Shown here one piece after another: positions 31,654 through 40,539 of a DNA stretch of 47,008 bases; positions within the stretch are counted from its first letter, which is position 1, and each line of letters begins with the position of its first letter. The position numbers were made by a program, and so were the translations under genes. The notes under the pieces are model-generated. The model was not told the origin of the DNA and made no database searches. It was given only the letters and a program-made list of their open reading frames with translations. The stretch spans positions 1 through 47,008 of the forward strand of contig JAKSPL010000018.1 of NCBI GenBank assembly GCA_024404815.1, read 5' to 3'. The DNA comes from Oscillospiraceae bacterium. Lineage in GTDB: Bacteria; Bacillota; Clostridia; Oscillospirales; Ruminococcaceae.

Positions 31654-34353
31654 ATGAACAGATCTCACGGCAAGCAAAGCCTGCTGTCTGCCCTGACCGC
31701 TGTCACGATGCTCGCATCGTCCGCAGTCTTCACACCCGTATTCAGTACGGCACAGGCGGCTTCCCAAAACATCGAAAATACGATGGAATGGGATACGCTC
31801 CGAATCGGCGGCGGCGGCTTCGTTTCGGGCATCGTCACAGGCAAGAAAGAAATGTATCTGCGAACTGATGTCGGCGGCGCGTACAAGTACGACTACGACA
31901 AAAACGAATGGGTTCAGCTGTTCGGCTTTCTGAATGATGCCGACCGCGGTCTGCTGAGTGTCAGCGGCATCGCCATCGACCCGACCGATGAGGATACGGT
32001 GTATTTCCTCTGCGGCTGTGCTTACTTCTCGGACGCACGCACCGTCATTTTCAAGACAACGGACGGCGGCAAGACCTTTACCGAGACCGATGTCACCGAT
32101 CTGATCCAGGTACACGGCAACGGCGACGGCAGAGAATGCAGCGAACCGATCGCCATTGATCCTGACAATCCGAATACACTTTACGCAGGCGGCGATGTTA
32201 CCGCAGGCGACTCCTGCCTCATCAAATCCACAGACGGCGGCAAAACATGGAACGCTGTCAAAGGCTATGACGACCTCGGCTTCTACAAATATACGATTCT
32301 CTGGCCGTTCTGGACTGACCACAAAGTCCGCGCCTGTACAAATAGCGACGAACAGTCCTATCCGCAGCAAAACGGCGTTTCCACCATCAAGATCGTTGAC
32401 GGAAAAGTCTATGTCGGCAGCGCGATCAACGGCGCGGCAAATGTCCATGTGGCAAGTGTCAAAGACGACAAGTTCTCCGTACTCTCGAAAGATCTTCCGA
32501 CAGCGAACTACCCTGTCACCATCTCCGACGATGGCAACGGCAGTCTGTTTGTCACCTACATTGCGGCACTCGCGTTCGGCGGCACGGCAGGCGGTGCATA
32601 CAAGTACGACATTGCAAGCGGCAAGGTCACGAACATCTCCCCGACTGACAAGGCGATCGGCATGATCACCGCGGACTCCAAAGATCCGAACAAGCTGTTT
32701 GCTCGTACCTGCGGCGTCTGGTCTGACCAGTGGTGGGAAAAGGAATGGACAGATGACAGCGTCACATGGGGCGACCACTTCTATCGTTCCGAAGACGGCG
32801 GTGCAACCTGGGAGGACATTACCCCCGGTCAGGGCCCGACCGATTACAGCACGGGCACAGGCGTCAAGGATTTCGTTTCCAATCCCCTTGACACAGGCGG
32901 CTACGACTGGATCTACGGCAAGGCTGTTCACTGGGGCAGCGGCATTCTCATCGACCCGAGAGATCCGGAGGGCGACCGCATCCTGATGACCTCGGGCAAC
33001 GGCGTGTTTGCCTGCGACAACGCATGGGACGAAAAGGGCATCCAGTTCTATTTCTGCCCGACAGGTGTGGAAGAAGTTGTTGCGCTCGACATGGTTTCTG
33101 TTCCCGGCGGTGCAGCATACTCCGTCATCGGTGACTACGACGGCTTTGTGCATGTGGACAAGGATACCGTTCCGCAGCAGCACAATCCGAATATGGGTTC
33201 GACCTCGGGTATTGCCTACTGTCCGTCCGCACCGAATGTCATGGCGAGAGTCGCAAATGATTCTGCAAAAGGCTATTACACCACCGACGGCGGCAAGACA
33301 TGGAAGGAAATGACCTTCGCGGCACAGGGCGGAAAGCTCTCCATCACCGAAATTTCCAGCGGCAAGTACCGTATCCTCGAATCGGGCAGCAGCGGAAGTG
33401 CAGTATCCTACACAGACGATTTCGGCGGCACATGGAACAACTCCACAGGTATCAAGGGCACGAAAACGACCTACACAATGGTTGATCCCGAAAATCCCGC
33501 AATCGTCTATGGTTCAGGCATCAATTACAACGAATACTGGTCTTCCAATCCGAACCTCACAGAGCCCTCGCTGGAAGATGACCACTACTCGTTCTACATC
33601 AGCAAGGACTACGGCAAAACCTTTACCGAAACGCAAATTTGCCGCTACGATATGTGTGACCACACAGGCGATCTTGCATATCTCACCAAAGACACCGTTG
33701 CGATGGCGGCAGGCTGGTACGGTCTGTACCTGATCTCGGACAGCGGCGCGGATGTACAGAGAACCGATGTGTTTTACTGCAAGTCCATCGGCTACGGTGC
33801 ACCCGAGAAAAAGGGCGGCGTCAACACGCTGTTCATCTACGGCAAGCCCACCGAATCGGATGAAGAAGGTATTTACCGTTCGACCGACAGCGGAAAAACA
33901 TGGGTATGCATCAACACCAAGAACCTCTACGGCGGCACAGGCAACGGCAACTTCCTTGTCGGCGATATGAACACATTCGGCAAGGTGTATATGTCCACCG
34001 TCGGCTGCGGCATCGTGGTCGGTGAAGTCGCCGGCACAAATCCGTCCGGTTCGACAACCTCGACCACCACGACTACTACGACTACCACCACCACATCGAC
34101 TACCACAACAACAGACGATCAGCCGCATGATGTAATATGGGGCGATGTCAACTGCGACAAGACCGTAGATATTTCGGATGTCATTCTGCTCTGCCGCTTT
34201 GTCGTGGAGGACAAGCAGGTCACCGTGACCGCAATGGGCAAAGCAAACGGCGATGTGGACGGCAACAGCAAGCTGACCGCCGCAGATGCCACCAAGATCG
34301 TGCGGTACATCGCTATGCTGATCACCAAAGAAGAACTCGCACCGTACAAATAA
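31654..34353 (+). CDS. GH74 xyloglucanase with type I dockerin
   Basis: An 899-aa secreted enzyme. A signal peptide (about 1-36, ending STAQAAS) leads into a GH74 two-propeller catalytic module with sortilin/BNR-type repeats (TDGGKT, SEDGGATW). The start EWDTLRIGGGGFVSGIV and LRTDVGGAY with conserved Asp72 are hallmark GH74. A Thr/Ser linker (near 806-822) and a dockerin (about 830-899) follow: GDVNCDKTVDISDVILL and GDVDGNSKLTAADATKIV, the two calcium-binding segments. Family activity is endo-cleavage of xyloglucan; the dockerin docks it to a cellulosome scaffoldin. ATG chosen for its signal peptide and TGGGGG site. Confidence 0.95.
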   Translation: MNRSHGKQSLLSALTAVTMLASSAVFTPVFSTAQAASQNIENTMEWDTLRIGGGGFVSGIVTGKKEMYLRTDVGGAYKYDYDKNEWVQLFGFLNDADRGLLSVSGIAIDPTDEDTVYFLCGCAYFSDARTVIFKTTDGGKTFTETDVTDLIQVHGNGDGRECSEPIAIDPDNPNTLYAGGDVTAGDSCLIKSTDGGKTWNAVKGYDDLGFYKYTILWPFWTDHKVRACTNSDEQSYPQQNGVSTIKIVDGKVYVGSAINGAANVHVASVKDDKFSVLSKDLPTANYPVTISDDGNGSLFVTYIAALAFGGTAGGAYKYDIASGKVTNISPTDKAIGMITADSKDPNKLFARTCGVWSDQWWEKEWTDDSVTWGDHFYRSEDGGATWEDITPGQGPTDYSTGTGVKDFVSNPLDTGGYDWIYGKAVHWGSGILIDPRDPEGDRILMTSGNGVFACDNAWDEKGIQFYFCPTGVEEVVALDMVSVPGGAAYSVIGDYDGFVHVDKDTVPQQHNPNMGSTSGIAYCPSAPNVMARVANDSAKGYYTTDGGKTWKEMTFAAQGGKLSITEISSGKYRILESGSSGSAVSYTDDFGGTWNNSTGIKGTKTTYTMVDPENPAIVYGSGINYNEYWSSNPNLTEPSLEDDHYSFYISKDYGKTFTETQICRYDMCDHTGDLAYLTKDTVAMAAGWYGLYLISDSGADVQRTDVFYCKSIGYGAPEKKGGVNTLFIYGKPTESDEEGIYRSTDSGKTWVCINTKNLYGGTGNGNFLVGDMNTFGKVYMSTVGCGIVVGEVAGTNPSGSTTSTTTTTTTTTTTSTTTTTDDQPHDVIWGDVNCDKTVDISDVILLCRFVVEDKQVTVTAMGKANGDVDGNSKLTAADATKIVRYIAMLITKEELAPYK

Positions 34354-37348: not shown

Positions 37349-39844
37349 TTACAGCCCGATATTCAGACCTTTCAATCCGTCGCTGACGATCTTTGCGACA
37401 ACTTTCGCGCCGGTTTCCGTAAAGTGCGTGAAATCCGTGCCACCATTTGTGGTCGAACCCATGTAATAGCCGTATACCGTGTTGTAAGCGATGTTGTTGA
37501 AGTTGTTTGCCATCGCCGAACCCAGATCGAAATACGGGACTTTGTACTTGTTCGCAAGCTGTTTGCAGGCAGTATCAATATTGCGGTAACCTGCGGAGAA
37601 CGGCTGCTGTGCATTCTTGATCGAAAGAGTCGGGCTCATCAGAACAGGTGTGCCGCCCTTTGCAAGCGCACCCTCGATATAGAATTCCATGTAGTATTCA
37701 AACGAGCCGTATGTGGGATTATCCACAAATCCGCAGCACGGTGCATAGCGTTCTTCCTTATTGTACGCGCCGTCGTTGATACCGAAGCAGACGACCAGAT
37801 AATCGCCCGATTTCATCTGGTCGAGAATCGTTTGCAGTCTGCCGTTGTCATAGAACTGCTTGGAACTTCTGCCTGCGAGGGAATGGTTGCTGACTGTCAC
37901 CGAGCTGTTGAAATAGTCGCCGAGGTAATATCCCCAGCCCTGCTGCGGTGCGTAGCTTGCAGTGTAGCTCTGTGCGGTGGAGTCGCCCGCAATGTAGATC
38001 ACGGGATTTGAGGAGTAATTTGTTTGCTGTCCCGATGCGTTTGGATCATAAACCTCCGCGATCGGTTCATCGGTCAGCGAAAGTGTGATATAGTCGATAT
38101 TCGGGCCGCCCTCACTCGTATACGACTGGAACTTGATGGAATTCTGTCCTGCTTTCAGCGGCAGAACCAGTCCGCGCATTTCCCAGGTCGTCCATGCGCC
38201 CGTGCTCTGGAAATCCTGTAGCCACTGTCTGCTGTCGCCGCCGACAGAGAGCATCATCTGACGGTTGTTCGCAGAACCGTTGGCATTGCGGATCGCCATA
38301 TAGTAGTTGCCGTCCTGTTCGACATTGACCGTAAAGGTCACGTTACTGGTAGAGGTGTTGTCAAGGTTGAGATACGCCTCGCCGACAAAACCTGCATTGA
38401 CGGTTTCCTTGATGCCCTCGCTGAACGAAGCATTGATCGCGTAGTAACGCTCCTGCACGGGGAACTTGCTGATCTGTGCGGTGAGGTACTGCACAAACAG
38501 AACCAAGTCCGCCATAGACACGCTGCTGTCATCGTTGAGGTCAGCGGCTTTTCTTGCGGCATTGTCCGAGAAACTGCCCAGAAGTCCGCGTTTTGCAAGT
38601 GTCAGGTCAGAAACGGTAATGACACCGTCATTGTTCACATCGCCTTTTTTGTAGACAGCTTCAGGCTGCTGCGGTTCAGTCGTCTGTGTTCCGCTGCCCG
38701 GATTGCCGCCTGCGGAGAAGTCGATATTCTCTGCGACCAGCTTTGCAAGCACCGTTGCACCTGCACGGTTCGGATGCAGACCGTCGCCCGATACATAAAG
38801 GTTCGTTGTTGCGTCCGCGCCGATGCCCATGCAGTGATTCTGCCAGAGGGTAAAGAGGTCGAGCACTTCAATATTCAGCGATTTTCCGATGGAATCGAGT
38901 GCGCCGCCGAACCAGCGTCCTGTCAGCAGAGGGTTTCTCTGGCAGTCGCCGTTTCTGCCCTGCTGCTTGACGAGAATAACACGCATTCCCTTTGCCATTG
39001 CACGCTTTGCCATATCGGTGACGACCTGCGTGTATTCCGATTCATTGGAATAGTTGGTATCGTTGATGCCGATGGAGATGAAATAAATATCGCCCTCGTG
39101 GCCAAAGGTTTCGATGGGTGTGAACTGTCCTGCATCGACAAATCCCTCTGCGTACTGACCGCTTGCGGCAAGGTTTCGCACCTGCCACTTGTTCGTATCA
39201 ATGACTGACGGGAGCATTTGTCCCCAGCCTGCCTGCGAGGAGGAATCGAGCGGATAGTAATTGCAGACCGTTGAGTCTCCGCAGATCCAGACCGCCGGAT
39301 TGGTTACGGGATTGTCGGAGATCTTCTTGATTTCCAGCGCGGAGAGTGTATACGCATAACCCTCTTTGCCCGCACAGCAGCAGATGTTGAGCTGTCCGTC
39401 CTTGACAGGGATCTGGAACGTATCATAGGCATTGTTGCCCGTCAGGTTGATGAGCTGATACATTCCCTCGGCGGCAACGCTGGTGCGGTTGGTATTGCCA
39501 AGCCACACAGACACCTGATACAGACCGTTCGGTACATCCGCGCAGAACGATGCAGAACCTGTGTTGGTGGAATTCTTAAACTGTACGGCATCGCTGAGTG
39601 CGCCCCAGCCCGATGCAGAAACATCGGACACATTGCAGTCGTAGGAAAAACCGTAGCCTGTGCCGCTGTTGTACTTTGTGGACGCAGATACGCCTGTGTA
39701 GCCGCCCTCCGTGCCGCCTGCACCGAAATCGAATTTCCAGTAGTCAGACGCCGCAGATGCCTGCATCGGCATGGTCGGAAGCATCGCTGCGGTGAGCGCA
39801 AGCCCTGTCAGCAGGCTTGAAAGCTTTTTCAGAATGGTTTTCAT
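37349..39844 (-). CDS. Double CE12 rhamnogalacturonan acetylesterase with internal dockerin and CBM
   Basis: An 831-aa secreted protein. In order: signal peptide (1-32), a YesT-like beta domain (to about 180), a first SGNH/CE12 domain (GDST with Ser191, GIND 259-262, DGLHPN 354-359), a linker, a type I dockerin (about 401-457, GDVNNDGVITVSDL and ADLNDDSSVSMADL), a CBM35/CBM6-like domain (about 465-592), and a second SGNH/CE12 domain (GDST with Ser622, GIND, DFTHF). The family removes acetyl groups from pectic rhamnogalacturonan; the dockerin attaches it to the cellulosome. The ATG at 39844 gives the signal peptide and has GGGGGA upstream; the TTG at 39862 is unlikely. Confidence 0.94.
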   Translation of the reverse strand: MKTILKKLSSLLTGLALTAAMLPTMPMQASAASDYWKFDFGAGGTEGGYTGVSASTKYNSGTGYGFSYDCNVSDVSASGWGALSDAVQFKNSTNTGSASFCADVPNGLYQVSVWLGNTNRTSVAAEGMYQLINLTGNNAYDTFQIPVKDGQLNICCCAGKEGYAYTLSALEIKKISDNPVTNPAVWICGDSTVCNYYPLDSSSQAGWGQMLPSVIDTNKWQVRNLAASGQYAEGFVDAGQFTPIETFGHEGDIYFISIGINDTNYSNESEYTQVVTDMAKRAMAKGMRVILVKQQGRNGDCQRNPLLTGRWFGGALDSIGKSLNIEVLDLFTLWQNHCMGIGADATTNLYVSGDGLHPNRAGATVLAKLVAENIDFSAGGNPGSGTQTTEPQQPEAVYKKGDVNNDGVITVSDLTLAKRGLLGSFSDNAARKAADLNDDSSVSMADLVLFVQYLTAQISKFPVQERYYAINASFSEGIKETVNAGFVGEAYLNLDNTSTSNVTFTVNVEQDGNYYMAIRNANGSANNRQMMLSVGGDSRQWLQDFQSTGAWTTWEMRGLVLPLKAGQNSIKFQSYTSEGGPNIDYITLSLTDEPIAEVYDPNASGQQTNYSSNPVIYIAGDSTAQSYTASYAPQQGWGYYLGDYFNSSVTVSNHSLAGRSSKQFYDNGRLQTILDQMKSGDYLVVCFGINDGAYNKEERYAPCCGFVDNPTYGSFEYYMEFYIEGALAKGGTPVLMSPTLSIKNAQQPFSAGYRNIDTACKQLANKYKVPYFDLGSAMANNFNNIAYNTVYGYYMGSTTNGGTDFTHFTETGAKVVAKIVSDGLKGLNIGL

Positions 39845-39881
39845 GGCAGAGTGATCCCCCAATTCATTTCTTTATTTTTTC

Positions 39882-39910
39882 ATCATAGCACAAGAAAAAC
39901 ATAAAGTCAA
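39882..39910 (-). promoter_or_regulatory. Promoter of the CE12 gene
   Basis: On the minus strand TTGACT (39910-39905), 17-nt spacer, TATGAT (39887-39882). Confidence 0.85.
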
Positions 39911-39993
39911 GGAATGCCGCACGGATGGACAGAATCGCACAAGAAAGCGCGACAATAATACAGCACAACTTTCTCTGCCTGCCCGTTTACAGA

Positions 39994-40021
39994 AAACTTT
40001 CAGACTGTTCATAGAAAGTTT
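39994..40021. promoter_or_regulatory. Inverted repeat between the CE12 and small-RNA promoters
   Basis: AAACTTTC (39994-40001), 12 nt, GAAAGTTT (40014-40021): perfect 8-bp arms. It is centred about 60 nt before the likely small-RNA start and about 100 nt upstream of the CE12 -35. The position suits a regulator site; the regulator is unknown. Confidence 0.45.
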
Positions 40022-40029
40022 ATAAGGCA

Positions 40030-40061
40030 TTCAGTATTACTTAAAAAAAGCACTGTATACT
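40030..40061 (+). promoter_or_regulatory. Candidate promoter of small RNA 1
   Basis: TATACT (40056-40061) with TTCAG 26 nt before it (40030-40034) instead of a standard -35. The same TTCAG at the same distance precedes the -10 of small RNA 2, so the pair is probably homologous and possibly activator-dependent. Confidence 0.45.
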
Positions 40062-40067
40062 AAAATT

Positions 40068-40167
40068 AAGGTTTCAGAAACCTTGTTTCAAATCCCCCAA
40101 ATCCCCGATTCATTTCTTTTATTTTTCATGCTATGCGGTATCTGCCTGCATAGCATTTTGCTTTTTT
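40068..40167 (+). ncRNA. Candidate small RNA 1 (C-rich, antisense to the CE12 leader)
   Basis: About 100 nt. It starts with hairpin AAGGTTT-CAG-AAACCTT (40068-40084), continues with an unstructured stretch containing ATCCCCCAAATCCCC, and ends in a strong terminator: ATGCTATGC (40128-40136) with GCATAGCAT (40148-40156), then TTTGCTTTTTT. No ORF of note. The segment 40101-40120 is complementary to the CE12 mRNA leader over its ribosome site with one bulge and one G-U pair. Expression and function are inferred. Confidence 0.5.
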
Positions 40168-40215
40168 ACAGCGTATTTACGCGCAGAAAAAATTTTTTAG
40201 AAAAATCTTCCGCTT

Positions 40216-40247
40216 TTCAGATTATTTTAATCTTCGTTCGGTATGAT
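40216..40247 (+). promoter_or_regulatory. Candidate promoter of small RNA 2
   Basis: TATGAT (40242-40247) with TTCAG at 40216-40220, the same 26-nt distance as in unit 1. No consensus -35. Confidence 0.4.
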
Positions 40248-40253
40248 ATAGAC

Positions 40254-40377
40254 AGGTTAAGGTGAACGCCTAAAACCGTAATTTTCAAACCCCATTTTCC
40301 CAATTCTTATTTCCCTATTCCATCTGAGATTTTCTCAACTCGGGCTGTGCGGCTTCTTCGCATGGCCTTATTTTTTT
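40254..40377 (+). ncRNA. Candidate small RNA 2 (paralogue of small RNA 1)
   Basis: About 120 nt with the same plan as unit 1. A 5' hairpin pairs GGTT with AACC and AGG with CCT (40255-40277). A C-rich open stretch (TTTCAAACCCC, TTTTCCCAATTC) follows, then a terminator: GGC and TGCG (40343-40351) with CGCA and GCC (40359-40367), then seven T. CCCAATTC is an 8-nt perfect complement of the CE12 ribosome-site region. Tentative. Confidence 0.4.
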
Positions 40378-40499: not shown

Positions 40500-40517
40500 T
40501 TGTGAATTTTTTCACAG
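40500..40517 (+). promoter_or_regulatory. Rex operator upstream of pgk
   Basis: TTGTGAA-TTTT-TTCACAG differs from the known Rex site TTGTGAAWWWWTTCACAA at one end base. It lies just downstream of P1 and covers the -35 of P2, the position of a repressor block. Rex senses NADH/NAD+ and controls central carbon genes in Firmicutes. Confidence 0.8.
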
Positions 40518-40539
40518 CGAACTATTTTTATTCTATAAT
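40511..40539 (+). promoter_or_regulatory. pgk promoter P2
   Basis: TTCACA (40511-40516), 17-nt spacer, TATAAT (40534-40539). Its -35 overlaps the Rex site. Confidence 0.65.

Follow-up and report, generated by a model that had tools for sequence, protein, structure and literature searches.

We identified two small-RNA (sRNA) genes, u1 and u2, that lie in tandem and in the same direction at positions 40029-40377 of the window (the whole 47,008-nt contig of an Oscillospiraceae bacterium that was analysed), between a divergent esterase gene and pgk. In each, a -10 box is followed by a 5' hairpin, a C-rich core that stays open and a terminator. Both are very probably genuine sRNA genes, and we would expect them to be expressed. 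Our main reading, to which we give a probability of about 0.6, is that u1 and u2 are switched on by a response regulator and block the translation of dockerin-bearing enzymes whose mRNAs carry a GGGGG Shine-Dalgarno sequence.

The proposed pathway would run as follows. An OmpR-family regulator of type A or of the sister type B, whose recognition helices resemble that of CiaR, would bind TTMAG-N5-NTTMAN hexamers 11 nt apart and, from this site 10 nt before the -10 box, would activate both genes. The products, of about 100 and 124 nt judging by sequence and predicted fold, would act in trans. The CCCCC core of u1 would pair with the GGGGG Shine-Dalgarno sequences of dockerin-bearing secreted plant-fibre enzymes, the neighbouring esterase first, and would so block ribosome entry; the potential for this pairing is present and conserved. 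The related core of u2 would probably serve a partly different set of targets. An active sensor kinase would thus lower cellulosomal protein synthesis. What goes beyond sequence, predicted folding, conservation and site statistics in this scheme we infer. The features, in window coordinates, are these:

37349..39844, minus strand: dockerin-bearing GDSL-type esterase gene (Pfam), divergent from u1 and its proposed target
39854..39888, minus strand: esterase mRNA leader with the GGGGG Shine-Dalgarno sequence (39856-39860), proposed pairing site
39985..40045, plus strand: u1 promoter hexamers with an 11-nt period, GTTTAC-ACTTTC-GTTCAT-GTTTAT-ATTCAG-CTTAAA
40029..40034 and 40040..40045, plus strand: final u1 hexamer pair, ATTCAG and CTTAAA, 10 nt before the -10 box
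40056..40061, plus strand: u1 -10 box, TATACT
40068..40167, plus strand: u1 sRNA, about 100 nt, both ends predicted
40068..40084, plus strand: u1 5' hairpin, AAGGUUU-CAG-AAACCUU
40086..40106, plus strand: u1 C-rich open core, UUUCAAAUCCCCCAAAUCCCC, near-invariant in 25 homologues
40094..40128, plus strand: u1 segment complementary to the esterase leader and Shine-Dalgarno sequence, ends approximate
40128..40167, plus strand: u1 intrinsic terminator and T run (terminator-like stem with T run, 40128-40156)
40215..40231, plus strand: predicted u2 regulator site, TTTCAG-ATTAT-TTTAAT, 10 nt before the -10 box (TTTCAG starts at 40215, TTTAAT at 40226)
40242..40247, plus strand: u2 -10 box, TATGAT
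40254..40377, plus strand: u2 sRNA, about 124 nt, ends predicted
40255..40277, plus strand: u2 5' hairpin, in the same place with another sequence in most homologues
40282..40322, plus strand: u2 C-rich open core, from the alignment of homologues and the unpaired probability
40342..40377, plus strand: u2 intrinsic terminator and T run (terminator-like stem with T run, 40342-40368)
40511..40539, plus strand: promoter-like site of pgk, TTCACA-17-TATAAT, 11 of 12 positions

The u1 start was set 7 nt after the -10 box and its end within the T run. We took the ATG at 39844 as the esterase start, while the open reading frame tool extends the gene to a TTG at 39862; the label "CE12" for this esterase comes from the preliminary description. 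That description had recognized two units with the same order of parts and an identical distance from TTCAG to the -10 box. Both observations held: the units lie at about 40068-40167 and 40254-40377, and the distance is 26 nt in each.

Both RNAs are predicted to fold as a hairpin, then an open C-rich stretch, then a terminator, and both fold better than shuffled sequences (u1, 40068-40167, z -3.68, 0 of 200 shuffles as good; u2, 40254-40377, z -2.38, 3 of 200). The u1 5' hairpin alone, scored as a 42-nt slice (40069-40110), was no better than chance (z -0.03), and it is the comparison across homologues that makes it convincing. The preliminary description had made conservation of the two hairpins in relatives a check on its proposal, and they are conserved, with z below -1 in 24 of 25 u1 and 22 of 24 u2 homologues. 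A terminator scan found 3 sites against a shuffle mean of 1.8, so the terminators by themselves are weak evidence. In the 25-row u1 alignment, 4 of the 10 pairs of the terminator stem had changes on both sides, and across both u1 helices 97.9% of cells were paired, compared with 33 to 50% in slid controls. The 5' stems of u2 vary in sequence among homologues, with a hairpin still predicted in most. RNAalifold returned no structure for the whole u2 alignment; in a subgroup alignment of the 12 alignable rows (A4), 3 of 20 predicted pairs were kept through two-sided changes and the terminator stem was retained despite changes on both sides. The subgroup prediction also contains an extra 6-pair helix around the first C run, on which we do not rely. 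In single-sequence folding the cores were mostly unpaired (mean 0.72 for u1 and 0.86 for u2), the C positions of the u1 core averaging 0.83.

When 30 genus genomes were searched at the DNA level, the present one among them, all 30 gave matches, so the units are no chance occurrence. By query range, u1 was found in 25 and u2 in 24, with both in 19 and u2 without a u1 match in 5 (G001, G002, G006, G016 and G019). A divergent u2-like copy that the DNA search had missed, the 25th u2, lies behind u1 on the minus strand of locus L019 (about 1330-1430) and is preceded by TTTCAG-GTTCA-TTTAAG-N10-TAGACT. The 25 aligned u1 rows share a nearly invariant AGGTT-hairpin-TTTCAAATCCCCC, and the u2 core is conserved across 24 rows. 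Scanning named genomes for the exact u1-core pattern yielded 39 stretches, 21 of which the u1 model confirmed; four of the other 18 (L045, L063, L078 and L083) were inspected by eye. All 21 confirmed stretches, several of which are not independent of the numbered genus genomes, come from metagenome genomes titled Ruminococcus, Oscillospiraceae or Clostridia, and many of their gut sources are sheep, goat, horse, deer or buffalo.

Outside the genus, we found convincing u1 relatives in four genomes from three genera of the family (L088-L091). The family search matched 10 of 247 genomes, 4 of them in this genus and 2 judged to be chance (L092 and L093, which we rejected on reading). The search for u1 relatives (R1) in 394 genomes of the order matched only this genome and G048 and added no new relatives, and the corresponding R2 search gave 7 weak matches outside the genus, the best with an E value of 7.1e-4; these wide searches used stricter filters, at the cost of weak matches. 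Directly upstream of the u1-like RNA, G145 and G220 have another short C-rich unit, complete with a box and a terminator of its own. The tandem arrangement thus recurs in another genus, at 11242 of L125 (G145) and 1501 of L106 (G220).

What sets the constant distance between TTCAG and the -10 box? TTCAG proved to be half of a direct repeat, TTMAG-N5-NTTMAN-N10-TANNNT, and, as read from the sequence, the 26 nt are the geometry of a predicted two-hexamer activator site. The strict form (NTT[AC]AG-N5-NTT[AC]AN-N10-TANNNT) is present in 24 of 24 u2 promoters and 6 of 25 u1 promoters. Of the 19 u1 promoters that depart from it, 12 have NTTCAG at the expected distance and differ in the second hexamer, which is TTTTAN in 9. 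The u1 promoters also carry upstream hexamers at an 11-nt period: among the 24 of 25 promoters scored (L027 gave no -10 box by script, and L022 was registered on the wrong one), slot 3 reads [AG]TTCA[CT] in 21 and slot 5 reads NTTCAG in 18. In the u1 relatives the repeat is TTTAAG-ATTAT-TTTAAG-N10-TATAAT in G048, TTTAAG-ATTAT-TTTAAG-N10 followed by TATACT in G145 and G220, and TTTAAG-ATTAC-TTTAAG-N10-TACAAT in G057. Up to six hexamers (GTTCAY ... ATTCAG) occur at u1 promoters, beyond the two-hexamer site of the streptococcal csRNAs; a second regulator may bind the upstream part of this array.

We scanned 856 kb of this genome, 400 kb of G009 and 420 kb of G145 for the site and found 11 with the 5-and-10 spacing; the reversed sequence gave none, as did 400 kb of G049, a genome without an sRNA match. 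The 11 comprise 5 sRNA promoters, the 2 divergent promoters of locus L121, a divergent pair in L290 of G145 and 2 others. The L290 pair resembles the VTC/Cthe_2159 pair of G220 in sequence. The u1 of G009 lies within the scanned stretch, and its promoter does not match the strict form. Six of the 11 come from loci that we had already selected (the window, L121 and L125). In the 1.59 Mb of the three sRNA-bearing genomes outside those loci there were 5 sites, and a control over 48 other spacings gave 0 to 4 matches each. The spacing 5-and-12 has 4 matches, three of which duplicate 5-and-10 sites through a shifted reading of the -10 box, and 5-and-7 has 3; the spacing control is weaker than it first appears. 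The 2 others among the 11 sites lie at 12491 of L223 (minus strand) and 10735 of L261 (plus strand).

Which regulator might read this site? The genome encodes eight OmpR-family DNA-binding domains, and we picked the one at L121 (contig C12, G000:C12, 5278-12896) for its CiaR-like recognition helix, not for its promoter. Here a response regulator/kinase operon, with a gene for a Cthe_2159-type dockerin protein behind the kinase, diverges from a VTC-DUF4956-CotH operon. The region between the operons contains two sites, one facing each way, and the regulator gene is preceded by TTTCAG-CTTGA-ATTCAG-N10-TATTAT. Together the L121 operons are a possible cell-surface regulon. This kind of regulator, type A, is present in 10 of the 30 genus genomes, with the strict site before the regulator in 6 of the 10 loci and on the divergent side in 4. 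Type B occurs in 24 genus genomes, in two of them as a fragment; of the 24 type B loci scanned, 1 carries the box. One or the other type is found in 27 of 30 genomes, and the remaining 3 are 58-77% complete.

The recognition helices are VEVYIGFLRKKL in type A of this genome and VEVYVSFLRKKL in type B; that of CiaR is given as VEVYVSKVRKKL in Table 1 of PMC3091779. Both are nearly identical to the CiaR helix. Searched against a Streptococcus suis genome, type B matched one protein best, at 172 bits (the next at 127), and the helix of this protein is the CiaR helix of that species. Among the regulators compared, S. suis CiaR scored best in turn with type B (about 40-44% identity). A tree of 46 regulators placed CiaR, on a long branch, with types A and B and two others (support 89/95). 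Our comparison with CiaRH covers the regulator. The site, its spacing and the shared regulon make control of u1 and u2 by a CiaR-type regulator appear quite probable. Types A and B are both candidates, judging by their sequences, for acting on them, and the narrow spread of type A and the single box at type B loci count against each in turn.

Where might the RNAs act? u1 stays with the esterase gene in 21 of 25 u1 loci, the esterase start lying 209-325 nt from u1 in 20 and 987 nt away in one, whereas u2 changes place. The best u1 partner among 331 genes of a first sample was the neighbouring esterase (duplex -33.5 kcal/mol, or -37.3 with a longer esterase target); with a shorter u1 query and 618 genes, the esterase ranked second. 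The u1 segment 3' of the core repeats the antisense of the esterase leader. In all 21 loci with u1 and an esterase start, the esterase Shine-Dalgarno sequence contains GGGGG while its flanks vary. A plainer reason for its conservation might be that GGGGG makes a strong ribosome site.

The preference extends to dockerin genes as a group, the dockerin and signal-peptide labels being assigned by regular expressions that miss some members. Among 618 genes of this genome, GGGGG precedes 5 of 16 dockerin genes and 8 of 602 others (odds ratio 34, p 6.7e-6). Core duplexes were stronger at dockerin starts for u1 (p 3.4e-5) and for u2 (p 0.001; longer core, p 0.0021), and the p value for anti-Shine-Dalgarno strength in the same comparison was 0.069. 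In G009 dockerin genes differed from others for u1 (p 0.013), u2 (p 0.0026) and the anti-Shine-Dalgarno sequence (p 0.043); GGGG was enriched (4 of 9 versus 24 of 284, p 0.0061) and GGGGG was not (1 of 9 versus 7 of 284, p 0.22). In G145 the values were p 0.012 for u1 and p 0.16 for u2, with GGGGG at 2 of 7 dockerin genes versus 19 of 298 others (p 0.077). The dockerin effect is hence partially replicated in these two genomes. The control genome G049 says nothing about targets, as we recognized no dockerin gene in its 400 kb. With the esterase genes removed, the u1 energy difference persisted (p 1.2e-4 here, 0.029 in G009 and 0.012 in G145); set against other secreted genes only, dockerin genes gave p 0.0012 here, 0.10 in G009 and 0.19 in G145. 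We also calculated Mantel-Haenszel figures, which rest on small counts and are not main evidence.

The preliminary description had proposed that the C-rich segments pair with Shine-Dalgarno sequences. Pairing stood up as the likely mode of action, but not as a general one: it appears directed at a GGGGG variant that is uncommon in this genome and concentrated in dockerin genes. General anti-Shine-Dalgarno binding by the cores found no support, since their mean duplex energy was no better than that of shuffled cores (for u1 over all translation starts, -12.73 versus -13.13). We think it rather likely that the main action of the RNAs is pairing with the esterase mRNA and other GGGGG-bearing dockerin mRNAs, which would be repressed as a result. 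A gene at window position 31654 with a signal peptide and a dockerin motif also has a GGGGG Shine-Dalgarno sequence (actgggggtattttc-ATG) and is a candidate u1 target.

A different reading would keep the regulator-driven sRNAs but deny that cellulosomal genes are their main targets: the cores would act on other mRNAs or on a protein, and the GGGGG sites would be no more than the strong Shine-Dalgarno sequences found at genes for secreted proteins. As a class, genes with a signal peptide do pair more strongly with the anti-Shine-Dalgarno sequence (p 1.5e-4), and secreted genes without a dockerin pair somewhat better with u1 (p 0.0098) and u2 (p 0.0025) and better with the anti-Shine-Dalgarno sequence too (p 7.2e-4). 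The weak replication of the GGGGG enrichment in G009 and G145 and the failure of mean duplex strength to beat shuffled cores point the same way. If GGGGG marked secreted proteins in general, however, secreted genes without a dockerin should share the enrichment, and they do not (1 of 127, versus 7 of 475 genes without a signal peptide). The u1 dockerin effect also survives regression on anti-Shine-Dalgarno strength here (p 1.5e-4) and in G145 (p 0.011), with p 0.062 in G009, and GGGGG is kept at every esterase start while its flanks vary, compared with only 5 of 30 type A and type B regulator genes. We consider this reading unlikely, though the most serious of the alternatives.

The other two alternatives concern the locus itself. 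Might the region, as the preliminary description had allowed, be merely a long leader of pgk, in this case untranslated and holding two attenuators? pgk is indeed the next downstream gene here and in G013, but in loci of about 3 kb it adjoins the pair in these two genomes only. Clustering of neighbours showed that different loci have different genes downstream of the RNAs, often convergent on the opposite strand, and therefore u1 and u2 are not pgk leaders. Each unit has its own terminator, and the separate 11-of-12 promoter-like site of pgk at 40511 means that u2 is not needed as a leader, which makes the attenuator explanation exceedingly improbable. The preliminary description had also taken the identical spacing and the C-rich cores as signs of duplication. 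A duplication is plausible: the order of parts is common to both units, and the u1 model scores u2 weakly (best E values 0.0019, 0.0061 and 0.015), while the u2 model, run on the loci supplied, matched none of their u1 RNAs. The shared spacing, however, is better explained by a response-regulator site. Were the site an accident of shared descent with no functional operator, it would hardly be kept in 24 of 24 u2 promoters when u1 and u2 lie apart in many genomes and u2 moves, nor would the identical geometry be expected at the regulator and VTC promoters, which do not belong to RNA genes. We regard such an accident as highly improbable.

Do these RNAs belong to a known family? The preliminary description knew of none that matched, and the Rfam search bears this out: at gathering score Rfam 15 finds only a tRNA (206-278) in the whole window, and at E values up to 5 the 11 matches around the region all fall below their cut-offs. 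Among the literature matches listed, no title pointed to these RNAs, to control of cellulosomal genes by an sRNA or to a Ruminococcus regulator of the CiaR type. Known C-rich sRNAs of Firmicutes, RsaE/RoxS and FsrA, pair with Shine-Dalgarno sequences through a C-rich unpaired region; their regulators differ from the candidates for u1 and u2, and the window contains no Rfam sRNA family at gathering score that would link u1 and u2 to them.

The closest likeness is to the csRNAs of streptococci. In PMC3091779, csRNA promoters were searched as TTTAAG-N5-TTTAAG with ten nt to TATAAT, and the predicted csRNAs are 51-202 nt long, 32 of 61 with two stem-loops, several per genome and some close together. 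u1 and u2 likewise have two TTTAAG-like hexamers 5 nt apart and 10 nt before the -10 box, and their modelled folds combine stem-loops with an unpaired anti-Shine-Dalgarno region. A two-component regulator, several short RNAs, a C-rich open core and Shine-Dalgarno targets would be common to both systems. According to the same source, almost all csRNAs carry the nonamer [A/C]UCCUAAA[A/C], which is missing from csRNA14 and the S. suis predictions, and 53 of 61 have an anti-start CAU in an unpaired region (PMC3091779). Unlike them, u1 and u2 have cores with C5 runs instead of the nonamer, which occurs exactly in 0 of 49 rows and at 8 of 9 positions in 1 of 49. CAU is present within the stretch examined in 24 of 24 u2 rows and 6 of 25 u1 rows. 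Other differences are that the hexamers of this genus are mostly TTCAG-like, with a longer, phased array at u1, and that the host is a clostridial gut bacterium in which the proposed targets are cellulosomal genes; CiaRH is stated to be confined to streptococci (PMC3091779, PMC8186281). By analogy, u1 and u2 would work like csRNAs yet lack one hallmark, the nonamer, and may represent a variant of the csRNA-like design. A looser parallel is LhrC of Listeria monocytogenes, described in PMC4132741 as a multicopy sRNA under the two-component system LisRK whose CU-rich sites bind the mRNA of a cell-wall protein and impede its translation. Shared with u1 and u2, going by that account, would be two-component control, multiple copies and a translation block; by the same description, the regulator and the sequence differ.

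What would these RNAs mean for the cell? Our broadest interpretation, that a CiaR-type regulator and paired C-rich sRNAs outside streptococci form a post-transcriptional cellulosome switch with GGGGG as a dedicated Shine-Dalgarno tag, is tentative, and we rate it somewhat below even odds. If it were true, one regulator would raise a cell-surface operon (VTC, DUF4956, CotH and a Cthe_2159-type binding protein) and, via u1 and u2, turn down the GGGGG-tagged dockerin enzymes. To our knowledge, the turning-down of cellulosomal genes in fibre-digesting Ruminococcus-type bacteria is little understood; the scheme, if right, would offer a candidate regulator pair together with two sRNAs, and its target genes would be recognizable by a sequence tag. 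The streptococcal CiaR/csRNA design would also gain a counterpart in a distant class, through either common descent or convergence.

We also considered feedback of the sRNAs on the regulator gene and rejected it as a conserved feature: a GGGGG Shine-Dalgarno sequence precedes 4 of 10 type A genes and 1 of 20 type B genes (2 of the 22 type B loci gave no start). The four type A genes that carry it are those of L127, L128, L129 and L131, and feedback is possible in some species.
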